Source of the DNA: an uncultured Methylophilaceae bacterium
GTDB taxonomy: Bacteria > Pseudomonadota > Gammaproteobacteria > Burkholderiales > Methylophilaceae
Length of the DNA: 64,000 bases
Direction of reading: 5' to 3'
Assembly: GCA_905182075.1 (NCBI GenBank)
Contig: CAJIZS010000001.1
Location: forward strand, 248,001-312,000
The translations under genes and the position numbers were made by a program. This document shows, piece after piece, positions 12,317-17,293 of the stretch (within the stretch, counting starts at the first letter, position 1; the number at the start of each line of letters is the position of its first letter). The notes under the pieces were generated by a model, which was not told where the DNA came from, did not search any database, and saw only the letters and a list, made by a program, of their open reading frames with translations.

Positions 12317-12464
12317 AATTTGATTATTCTCAAGCAACATTGTGCCGTGTATGATAACAACATAATACTTTAAGTTAATTAATAAACAGTTAAAGATAGT
12401 TTAATTGTTAAATAATAATAACTTAATCTTAAAATAATTATTGAATAATGAAGGTTTAAATAAA

Positions 12465-13137
12465 ATGGATAAGCAACATTCTCAAGAAGAACTTAAAAAA
12501 CAAGTAGCTATTAAAGCAATTGAATACGTTAAATCAGGAATTATTGGAGTTGGTACAGGCTCTACAGCAAATTATTTTATCGACGAGCTAGCTCAAGTTA
12601 AGAATAAAATTGATGGGGCAGTAGCAAGTAGTGAGGCTACAGCAGATAGGCTTAGGTCTCATGGAATTGAGGTGTTCGATCTTAATAATATTCATGGTAT
12701 GGAAATATATGTAGATGGGGCTGATGAAATTACTGTAGCCCTCTCTGACCGTCGCGAATTTGAAGCAGAAGTTAACAAGAGAAAAAATTGTTGCTGCTAA
12801 TTCAAAAACATTTATTTGTATATGTGATGAAAGTAAATATGTACCCACCTTAGGTAAGTTTCCTTTACCCGTTGAGGTTCTTCCTATGGCAAAAAGCTAT
12901 GTCGCAAGAGAATTAACAAAACTAGGTGGCCATCCGCAACTAAGAGACTTTAAAACAGATAATGGAAATCTTATTTTAGATGTGCATGAGCTTAATATTA
13001 AAGACCCAATTGAAATGGAAACTAAAATTAATCAAATTGTTGGCGTAGTTACCAATGGCTTATTTGCTGTTCGTCCTGCCAATATTTTACTTCTTGCAAC
13101 TAACGATGGAGTGAAGACAATAAAGAAAGGTGCTTAA
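12465..13137 (+). CDS. rpiA: Ribose-5-phosphate isomerase A (disrupted core)
   Basis: Interconverts ribose-5-P and ribulose-5-[33 protein letters not shown] and YVDGADEI match RpiA, and after the break [27 protein letters not shown] and [17 protein letters not shown] complete it. Between ADEI and the LTREK motif the expected loop with the catalytic Lys (consensus IKGGGGA) is missing; instead there is [14 protein letters not shown], which reads as a DegP/HtrA protease segment. The frame also shifts at about 12775. As written the enzyme would be inactive; the likelier explanation is a chimeric consensus over about 40 bases. Confidence 0.85.
12731..12772 (+). other. DegP/HtrA-like patch replacing the rpiA catalytic loop
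   Basis: [18 protein letters not shown] matches the conserved DegP protease wording (DADEITVTLSDRREF-type) that precedes its catalytic Asp region. RpiA and DegP both contain ADEI, so the switch occurs at a shared short string. The patch uses GC-rich codons (GACCGTCGCGAA) unlike its flanks. Confidence 0.6.
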
Positions 13138-14181: not shown

Positions 14182-14263
14182 TATTAGTCCTTGGTTTGAA
14201 TTATTTGAGTATCTTTCTTTAAATAATTATAATAAAGATGAACAGTAAAATTTCAATTTTATT

Positions 14264-14490
14264 AATAGGCAGGTGATAACTAATTAATTCTTAATTAGTT
14301 ATTTAAACGGGAAGTTAAGTGAAAATCTTACACTGCCCCCGCAACAGTAATTGAGGATGGATATTTAATTCAACCACTGGGTTCATACCTGGGAAGGTTA
14401 ATATTTAGTCTCATAAGTCTGGAGACCGGCCTTATCAAACTAGCATGGAAGTATTGCGGGGAAGCAATATTTAATTGATAAGACTTTTTT
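14264..14490 (+). promoter_or_regulatory. Cobalamin riboswitch with terminator-type expression platform
   Basis: Conserved blocks in order: GGCAGGUGAUAAC, ACGGGAAGUUAAGUGAAA, the B12 box CACUGCCCCCGCAAC, CCACUGGGUUCAUACCUGGGAAGG (14373-14398) and AAGUCUGGAGACCGGCC. Immediately after, CTTATCAA (14431-14438) can pair with TTGATAAG (14475-14482) around an inner TATTGC/GCAATA hairpin, followed by a run of six T. That is a Rho-independent terminator, so control is probably by premature termination when cobalamin is bound. The unit it controls is btuB and the BtuM-like gene. Confidence 0.95.
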
Positions 14491-14576
14491 CTTTATAAAG
14501 AATTTTACAATTTTTTTATTCAAAAATCAACTTGGATATGCATTCTTGCATGCCTGGTTGCAAAGAGAGGATCATA

Positions 14577-16524
14577 ATGAAACAGAAACTTTTAGTAGTA
14601 TTAGTTGCAAGTGCAGTAAACGTTTATGCAGAACCAGCATTAAAAACAACTTTAACATCGAGCATTGGTAAGTAATGCGACAGAATTAACAGCGCCTTAT
14701 TCCATTGAAATTCATACAGATAAAGAAATAGCTAAATCAGGAAGTACCTCGTTATTTGACTATTTATCAAAACATACAGGTCTTAGTATTTCGCCTAGCT
14801 ATGGCGACAAAAATAAGCCTTTGATTGATATGCGAGGGTACGGGATAGAATCAGGCTACCAAAATCTAGTTATTTCAGTTGATGGAGTAAAACTAAATAA
14901 TATTGATATGGTGACTCCATTTATAGGTGCCTACAATCTGAGTAGCATAGAAAGAATTGAAATTAATAGAGGCTCTGGTTCTGTAGTTAGAGGTGATGGT
15001 GCAATGGCTGGGTCTATTCAAATTTATACTAAAAATTATGACGGTGTAAGTATCGAATCTGCTATCGGAAGTGCTGGCCTTATGAATCATCAAATAAATG
15101 CAGGACTCACAACAGATCTCTATAATCTTACCGTAAACATTAGTGATGAAAAAAACGATGGCTACAGTGACGCTGATACTCAAGGCAATAAAGATAAGTC
15201 AGTGAGTAATACAGGGCAACTAAAATTAACAGTCAAAGCAGCTGAAAATTTAGCATTAAAGTTTGGAGTTTTAAATGTCAGAACAAATAATTTTATAGTT
15301 GGCAATCTTTCAATGGCAGAGTTTTTAGATAACCCTAAACAAAATAGTGGTAATCAGTACGGAAATTTTGATTTTGATTATGATAAATATAATACGGGCT
15401 TTGACTATGAAATAAACTCAAAATTTACTTTAAATGGAAACTATGCCTTTGAAGATAAAGAAACGCATTCTATTACATCTTATAATGACGATACATTGGA
15501 CTACGAGACACATACACTCGATTTAGTTTTAAATCATAAGTTTGGTGACTTTTTTAACACCTACGGATTATATGTTTTTGATGGTGAGAGATTAGATGGA
15601 GGTTCATCTAGAGGTAAAGTTACAAAAGATAATAAAGCAGTTTTTGCTAATTCAGAATATCAACTAAACAACACTTTATTTTCTGCCGGCTACAGACAAG
15701 AAAAAGTAGATTATTCTTATAACGCAGCGACATCAGCAGGTCTGAGTACTGATGAATCTTTACATGCTTGGAATATAGGCCTTAATCATTCACTAAATTC
15801 TCAGTTGTCTATTTTTACAAACCTAAATCGTGCCTTTCAAGCTCCTGACGTCGACCGCTTTTTTATAGGAATTTACCCTGCACCAAATTATAATTTAACT
15901 GGTAGAAATTTTAATGGATTTATTGATCCAGCTTCATCCGAAACGCTCAATGTAGGTTTAAACTACTTAACTCCCAGGAATAAATTTAAAATCGTTGCTT
16001 ATTATTCAGATGTTAAAAATGAAATTGCTTATGTTGGTTCGATAAATCAAAATATTGATAATTCAGAAAAATATGGGGTAGAGATTCAAAATAATTTTCA
16101 ATTGAATGATAAGACAAATGTAGGGATTGCTTACAACTACGTTGAGGCAAAGATTGGGAGTAATGCCCAAGGTCTTGTAGATGGAAATGATATGCCAGGG
16201 GTTCCTAAACATACCGCTGTTCTTGATATTAATTATAAGTATTTAGATCAAGGTAATATTAATTTTAATCATACATGGAAACAAAAAACATATCATTTTG
16301 GAGATTTCGCAAATAGTAGTAGTCAGAAACAACCTGCGTATAGTGCGACTAACTTAAGTATCAATTATGTTGTCGATAATGTTAAATATGCTGACAAAGT
16401 TAATCTATTCGCGGCTGTAAATAATATTTTTGGAAATGAGAATGCTATTCAAAGCGCGGATAATAGTTTATATCCATTTAACTTTAGTAGAACATGGATG
16501 ACTGGTGTGAATATTGATTTTTAA
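14577..16524 (+). CDS. btuB: TonB-dependent vitamin B12 receptor BtuB (N-terminal frameshift)
   Basis: Outer-membrane barrel for cobalamin uptake. ATG 14577 begins a signal peptide (MKQKLLVVLVASAVNVYA); the frame shifts near 14668 just before the plug. The plug domain shows IDMRGYGIESGYQNLVISVDGVKLN, SIERIEINRGSGSVVRGDGAMAG and IQIYTK. The barrel follows and ends WMTGVNIDF with the terminal Phe required for outer-membrane assembly. About 648 residues. The cobalamin riboswitch in its leader assigns the substrate; sequence alone would only give TonB-dependent receptor. Confidence 0.88.
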
Positions 16525-16581
16525 AAAGGTAATAGAGATGGTAAAATTTAGAAAAATTAATTTAAGGAAATAATTCGCTAA

Positions 16582-17151
16582 AAAAATATTTTAACAAAAG
16601 AAGTAAAAATAAGTATTTTTTTAATATTTTTTATTTTCTTAACAAGGGTTAGTCACGAATTAACGTTGCTATCCCTTCCTGACGCAAGCCTTATTATTTT
16701 TTTTGCTGCAGGAATTTTTCTAAAAAATATAAAATGGCTTTTATTTTTTGTATCTTTGATTGTTGGGATTGATCTTTATGCAATTAACGCAAATAATATG
16801 CTTCACATAAATCTTACCTTTAGTTACTGGGTCTACGTCACTACTTATTTAATATCCTGGTATGCGGGTAAAGAAATTTTAAGTGGGAGGCCTAGCTTAA
16901 AAACTTCAATATACATACCTACAGTATTGGGGGTACTATTGACGGCTTTTATAATTTCGTATTCGAGTCATTATTTTTTATCAGGGTGGATTAATAATCC
17001 AGAGTTTTACGGAAACCTTCTTTTTCTCAAAGAGAATTTAAGCTCCTTTTTAGTGGCTAATCTAACATATGCGATTGTGCTACTTGTATCTGTTAAAGCA
17101 TTGGAACTTATTAAGCAATCAAAATCTACCAAAGAATTTAACGCTAATTAG
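16582..17151 (+). CDS. BtuM-like ECF S-component, predicted cobalamin transporter
   Basis: About 185 residues with five or six membrane segments. The first helices read IFFIFLTRVSHELTLLSLPDASLIIFF then AGIFL; the motif LPDAS-xxx-FF-x-AG is characteristic of BtuM, the solitary S-component for vitamin B12 described from Thiobacillus and other Proteobacteria. In the best-studied BtuM a cysteine after the second helix binds cobalt; here the matching region (NMLHINLTFSYWVY) has no cysteine. The open frame starts at 16582 without a good ATG; an ATG at 16535 in another frame suggests an N-terminal indel. It follows btuB by about 60 bases and shares its riboswitch. Family call is from recalled motifs. 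Confidence 0.62.
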   Translation, partial: KNILTKEVKISIFLIFFIFLTRVSHELTLLSLPDASLIIFFAAGIFLKNIKWLLFFVSLIVGIDLYAINANNMLHINLTFSYWVYVTTYLISWYAGKEILSGRPSLKTSIYIPTVLGVLLTAFIISYSSHYFLSGWINNPEFYGNLLFLKENLSSFLVANLTYAIVLLVSVKALELIKQSKSTKEFNAN

Positions 17152-17217: not shown

Positions 17218-17293
17218 GGCCTGATAGCTCAGTTGGTAGAGCAGTGGATTGAAGATCCTCGTGTCGAAAGTTCGATTCTTTCTCAGGCCACCA
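17218..17293 (+). tRNA. tRNA-Phe (GAA)
   Basis: 76 bases forming a full cloverleaf: acceptor GGCCTGA/TCAGGCC, D-arm with AGCTCAGTTGGTAGAGC, anticodon loop TTGAAGA giving GAA, T-arm with TTCGATTC, and an encoded CCA. TATAAT at 17192-17197 is a likely -10 promoter element. Confidence 0.97.

Follow-up and report, generated by a model that had tools for sequence, protein, structure and literature searches.

A cysteine-less BtuM homologue at a cobalamin riboswitch-linked locus of marine Methylophilaceae

Genes and features of the locus

Our analysis concerns one locus on a stretch of 64,000 nucleotides, here called the window, from an uncultured Methylophilaceae bacterium (assembly GCA_905182075.1, contig CAJIZS010000001.1, positions 248,001 to 312,000). 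The genus is one of marine OM43 methylotrophs. At the locus a cobalamin riboswitch precedes a TonB-dependent receptor gene and the gene of a homologue of BtuM, for which the BtuM of Thiobacillus denitrificans (BtuMTd) serves as reference. The features are given in window coordinates.

14254 to 14445, plus strand: cobalamin riboswitch aptamer, RF00174, 94 bits, E 4.2e-22, covering the model (1-189) in full
14431 to 14490, plus strand: terminator-like hairpin and T run 3' of the aptamer, a putative expression platform, RNA fold of -14.6 kcal/mol
14577 to 16524, plus strand: TonB-dependent outer-membrane receptor, a B12 receptor by context, with its 5' frame broken in this assembly
16582 to 17151, plus strand: BtuM homologue with the solitary S-component fold, cysteine-less (phmmer, AlphaFold and structure match)
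16804 to 16806, plus strand: codon for His75, equivalent to position 78 of BtuMTd and two residues N-terminal to the missing cysteine; the column table shows His there for 9 of the 18 clade sequences
16810 to 16812, plus strand: codon for Asn77, at the place of the cobalt ligand Cys80 of BtuMTd in the alignments

The riboswitch match is over the RF00174 gathering score of 31.5 and is the sole copy in the window's draft genome. A preliminary description of this DNA had named a full cobalamin riboswitch with a terminator platform. The riboswitch stands as described. The hairpin (14431-14482, followed by the T run at 14485-14490) folds better than most shuffles, with a z of -2.27 and 4 of 200 equally good; a strict terminator scan called no terminator after the aptamer. 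Across the genus the riboswitch is present in 27 of 31 genomes, in a single copy each, and OM43 strain H5P1 has been noted to have just one cobalamin riboswitch, located upstream of its btuB (PMC9004378). Going by coordinates, 23 of the 27 genomes have it on the strand of btuM, about 2-2.2 kb upstream of that gene, two have it convergent with btuM and two on another contig; the four genomes without a riboswitch are two without a BtuM match and two with btuM at a contig end. The btuM of the window is linked to B12 genes by the riboswitch and the TonB receptor upstream, and a tRNA-Phe follows 3' of it at 17218-17293.

The receptor frame runs from 14665 to 16524, and the ATG of its signal peptide at 14577 sits in a different frame. 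Its span 14665-16521 matches the barrel family PF00593 (1.2e-34) and the Plug family PF07715 (4.5e-14). In an independent assembly (locus L028) the gene is in one frame, with 675 aa from a TTG or 651 aa from an internal ATG. The label btuB that the gene had first been given needs qualifying in view of the BtuB model TIGR01779, whose cutoff is 599.7: the window frame scores 55.9 bits, the intact L028 copy 65.9, L048 64.2 and the isolate HTCC2181 376.1. The top NCBIfam match of the window receptor is a siderophore-receptor model, under that model's own cutoff, and no PDB sequence matched the receptor at E 1e-10. With a score far under the BtuB cutoff, the name is one taken from context only. As to that context, a tblastn search with the L028 receptor placed a receptor next to btuM in 17 of 18 genus loci. 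It missed that of HTCC2181, the 18th locus, which is of another type and was identified there from its ORF and profile score. This more BtuB-like receptor (L039:1459-3441, 376 bits to TIGR01779) occupies the same slot between riboswitch and btuM, and from HTCC2181 and the other loci it can be seen that the receptor type varies between OM43 loci while btuM stays.

The BtuM homologue and its missing cysteine

The BtuM frame has 189 aa and begins 57 bases downstream of the receptor's stop codon, close to what the preliminary description gave (185 residues, about 60 bases). A stop codon immediately precedes the frame, and its 5' end lacks a usual start codon; the btuM of L028 has 191 aa from a GTG start 52 bases past the receptor stop. 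That this is a BtuM-like S-component, as had been proposed, is borne out by sequence as well as fold. Phmmer matched the frame to BtuM 8c7p_A at E 7.6e-11 over residues 6-157, and the chain of 8c7p and 8ovv, entries whose titles name tagless BtuM with cyanocobalamin or hydroxycobalamin, was the sole PDB sequence match at an E-value of 10 or less. We take this chain to be BtuMTd, with His28, Asp67, Cys80 and Tyr85 counted at the places given by Rempel et al. (2018, PMC6072759). The AlphaFold model of the window protein, made from 15 sequences, has six helices with a pLDDT of 92.2 and a pTM of 0.87, and it matches the crystal structures 8c7p/8ovv with a Z of 18.7 and an rmsd of 2.8 over 172 residues at 24% identity. 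FolT and other S-components share the general fold, with Z values of 7.1 to 11.5 at 9-15% identity; these, unlike BtuM, work within ECF transporters alongside EcfT and ATPases (PMC6072759). Pfam returned only YrzO for the frame, at E 0.39, which we disregarded, and NCBIfam returned no match.

With BtuMTd (8c7p, 8ovv; Rempel et al. 2018, PMC6072759) the window protein has in common the fold with its six helices, the B12-linked gene place and the pocket residues His28, Asp67 and Tyr85. In alignment A1, which took in 15 of the 26 proteins of the first round, the latter are His25, Asp64 and Tyr82 of the frame, and they are present in all 140 unique BtuM sequences compared. The differences are a Phe at the place of Arg153, where only 38 of the 140 sequences have Arg, and the loss of Cys80, the window frame holding no cysteine at all. 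Rempel et al. describe the BtuM cysteine as "invariably conserved" and Cys80 as the cobalt ligand (PMC6072759), and both the window and L028 have Asn at this place. The window protein is therefore a BtuM homologue, but outside the cysteine-ligating class.

The assembly is rich in frameshifts, with the receptor frame, the metH frame and the start of BtuM all broken, and a sequencing error could in principle have removed the cysteine. We give this explanation practically no weight and rule it out: L028, from the other assembly, has both genes in unbroken frames and carries the identical Asn-containing loop in a BtuM 94% identical to that of the window, and further relatives, the isolate HTCC2181 included, are cysteine-less as well. 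The nearest ones (L003-L007, 44-49% identical to the window BtuM) have Asn at the Cys80 place. The cysteine-free loop noticed at the outset is thus real. As for the assembly itself, the frames broken at 12441-13137 (the gene upstream of a phoU-like one) and at 14577-14700 (the receptor start) fit its error-rich nature and its completeness score of 47%.

The preliminary description had reported the missing cysteine from this window; it is not peculiar to it, and the loss recurs in pelagic Methylophilaceae. Cys80 is kept in 115 of the 140 unique sequences, BtuMTd included, with identical sequences taken once and the partial L015, L024, L025 and L053 dropped. A search with a single short peptide pattern gave 148 loci, of which the best 80 were named, so that this set leans towards the window's kind; the cysteine is present in 65 of the 80 and absent from 15. 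Twelve of these 15 are titled Methylophilaceae, Methylotenera or Methylophilales (L039, L053). The others are L028, titled Flavobacteriales, and L032, titled Nitrosomonadales, whose sequence is that of genus member L007; both lie within the OM43 clade. The Flavobacteriales title of contig CAJXYM010000025.1, which carries L028, probably reflects a mistake in binning or naming of the public entry.

A BtuM match occurs in 29 of the 31 genomes of the window's genus. Cys is present in eight of these, and its place is taken in the other 21 by Asn, Leu, Ile, Ala, Thr, Gly, Arg or Tyr, three of the latter copies being partial with the loop included. HTCC2181, an OM43 strain (PMC9004378), has Asn, and LSUCC0665 and LSUCC0717 have Cys. 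Beyond the genus, 137 genomes of the family gave a match, and the position was read for 54 of them; the reading left out loci L131, L134 and L136-L141. In the small-genome genus g31, which comprises the LD28 record L080 (the same sequence as L155) and single-contig genomes, it was read in 10 of 11 genomes and the cysteine is absent in 5 of the 10. A search limited to open-licence papers found none on a cysteine-less BtuM.

A tree of BtuM with the loop columns removed was built from 92 of the 140 rows, thinned at 90% identity for the cysteine-less and 75% for the Cys sequences. It has three changes of state at the cysteine position, which are forced by the starred branches and are found over the whole 5-95% range of the bootstrap trees. 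They fall on the OM43 clade with the window, on one OM43 sequence with Tyr inside a Cys group and on the g31 clade with L057. We read these changes as losses of the cysteine because the sequences read from outside the family have Cys. The g31 change is separate from that of OM43: the cysteine is replaced by Pro or His, or by Ser in L057, which belongs to a different genus but falls in this clade, and the Trp141 and Glu29 seen in the OM43 clade are missing. Checks of the tree flagged L008 for its long branch, and five rows, that of the window among them, for an odd letter composition.

A phoU-like gene, named by reading, flanks the cysteine-less OM43 loci as well as g31 loci with and without the cysteine, being near btuM in several of the latter genus as in OM43. 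Some gene replacement at the btuM locus is likely, since no phoU-like neighbor was found in the adjoining 3.5 kb at L048, L049 and L061, which are of the Cys type. Within the cysteine-less groups dN/dS was 0.10-0.34 in 12 pairs, which share members and are thus not independent, and 0.11-0.21 was obtained in 4 Cys-type OM43 pairs; a 13th cysteine-less pair had saturated dS and three pairs had a dS over 1. By this computation the cysteine-less BtuM is under purifying selection.

B12 need and other importers in the genus

MetH is found in 30 of the 31 genus genomes, the missing one being 78% complete, and a MetE-like domain in one of the 31. This is in line with the initial picture of a streamlined, B12-dependent methylotroph, and an OM43 isolate has been reported to give a higher yield with a vitamin mixture including cyanocobalamin (PMC5120137). 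The sole MetE-like match, an open frame of 349 aa, belongs to genome G011 (locus L144), whose partial BtuM copy has Tyr at the cysteine place.

The route proposed at first was a minimal one without BtuCDF, and the search of the genus supports this. BtuC was found in none of the 31 genomes by a search that rang in 13 of 14 control genomes, SbmA/BacA in none (2 of 14 controls), CobS in none (10 of 14) and BtuR (PF02572) in none (7 of 14). BtuC-type permeases occur in 22 of 187 family genomes and in 4 of 24 genera, the window's genus and g31 not among them. Both a BtuCDF encoded elsewhere and SbmA/BacA are rejected as the importer on these counts. The window's own draft genome yielded neither BtuC nor EcfT (the latter at E 1e-3), and as it is frameshift-rich and 47% complete, absences in it alone are weak and the genus-wide searches carry them. 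An importer of unknown type would escape the searches made here, which covered BtuC, SbmA/BacA and EcfT. In having no btuR that could be found, the genus differs from BtuMTd; the link to btuR is stated for most BtuM hosts, not all (PMC6072759).

As to the accompanying claim that there is no ECF module, EcfT gave no match in the window's draft genome, and in the genus EcfT-like (CbiQ-family) matches occur in 6 of 31 genomes at E 1e-3, weak ones, with one over the cutoff (37.5 bits). This raises the question of whether BtuM is solitary at all, or works with a diverged EcfT-like protein and a shared ATPase. In the OM43 loci L108 (1522-2121) and L109 (1486-2097) a diverged EcfT-like membrane protein is encoded between fimV-like and truA-like genes (names by reading), and it is a possible hidden partner for solitary S-components. 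We find such a partnership very unlikely. No EcfT match appears in the window's genome at E 1e-3, no ATPase is among the ORFs listed for L108 and L109 (about 3.4 kb each), and E. coli is among the 10 of 14 controls in which the EcfT search rang, though it is without an ECF module according to Rempel et al. (PMC6072759). The same work reports that BtuMTd supports growth in E. coli.

Proposed role of a BtuM without cysteine

We consider it likely that the locus is a riboswitch-controlled pair for B12 scavenging and that its BtuM homologue is a functional solitary importer, which would bind the corrinoid without cysteine ligation or decyanation; transport, substrate, binding mode and trapping are what we infer from the computed features. 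The receptor together with TonB would bring the corrinoid into the periplasm, and the BtuM homologue would bind it in the kept pocket and carry it over the inner membrane, where it would feed MetH. Judging from BtuMTd, a carrier acting without Cys80 should neither ligate cobalt by a thiolate nor decyanate. The corrinoid is probably held by His28, Asp67 and Tyr85, with the cobalt having no protein ligand or a histidine. The trap proposed for cobalamin in BtuM hosts is adenosylation by BtuR (PMC6072759). Retention cannot rest on it here because BtuR was not found in the 31 genomes, and binding by apo-MetH would be the likeliest corrinoid sink in the cell.

A problem for this importer reading comes from BtuMTd itself. 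Decyanation by BtuMTd requires Cys80, the C80S mutation abolishes complementation, and C80A and C80S lose cobalamin binding and keep that of cobinamide (PMC6072759). By this measure the cysteine-less window protein should fail, which counts against a functional importer. The C80S result, along with the long branches on which the cysteine-less sequences sit, could instead mean that these proteins are decaying or have switched substrate and no longer carry B12. This we regard as unlikely, for they are under purifying selection with invariant pocket residues and a retained riboswitch linkage, in genomes that have MetH without MetE and no other importer found among those searched. Cobinamide as the substrate, an idea that comes from its binding by C80S, is disfavored by the lack of CobS in all 31 genomes.

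It is possible, if rather doubtful, that another residue replaced the cysteine as cobalt ligand, in a base-off/His-on mode. The candidates are a His of the same loop at position 78 (His75 of the window), one at position 88, where the window has Tyr, and one at position 135, which is His130 in the window. Within the OM43 cysteine-less clade His is found at position 78 in 9 of 18 sequences, at 88 in 12 and at 135 in 10, each being below 15% in the 115 Cys sequences, and 13 of the 18 have Trp at position 141. However, the HTCC2181 branch (L008, L009, L011, L014) has none of the three His, and in L059 of the freshwater clade His28 is the single His of the whole protein. Therefore a His replacement cannot be the general answer, and a universal replacement His other than His28 is rejected, as only His28 is common to all.

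The adenine of pseudocobalamin binds cobalt weakly, and there is little cyanocobalamin in surface waters. Cultured Synechococcus strains have been found to make only pseudocobalamin (PMC4850488). A carrier of such corrinoids would have no need of a thiolate for displacing the base. The planktonic relatives lost the cysteine repeatedly, and with limited confidence we suggest that pelagic methylotrophs made BtuM a thiolate-free carrier because the corrinoids of sunlit water may lack cyanide or already be base-off, as for example pseudocobalamin from picocyanobacteria. Transport and decyanation would then be separable, the range of corrinoids would be different, and the cobalt would face His28 or no residue. 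Habitat alone does not dictate the loss, because OM43 members with Cys exist.

The one characterised BtuM is described as a rare substrate-modifying transporter with an invariable, essential cysteine (PMC6072759). The proteins described here are naturally occurring relatives that lack this cysteine. They come from marine bacteria that are apparently B12-dependent and gave no match to any other importer searched for within the set threshold for BtuC and SbmA/BacA. They allow a test of whether cysteine ligation serves transport or decyanation only, and also the study of B12 movement by a solitary S-component that has neither an ATPase nor adenosylation to trap its cargo. Such a cysteine-less BtuM is carried by the isolate HTCC2181.
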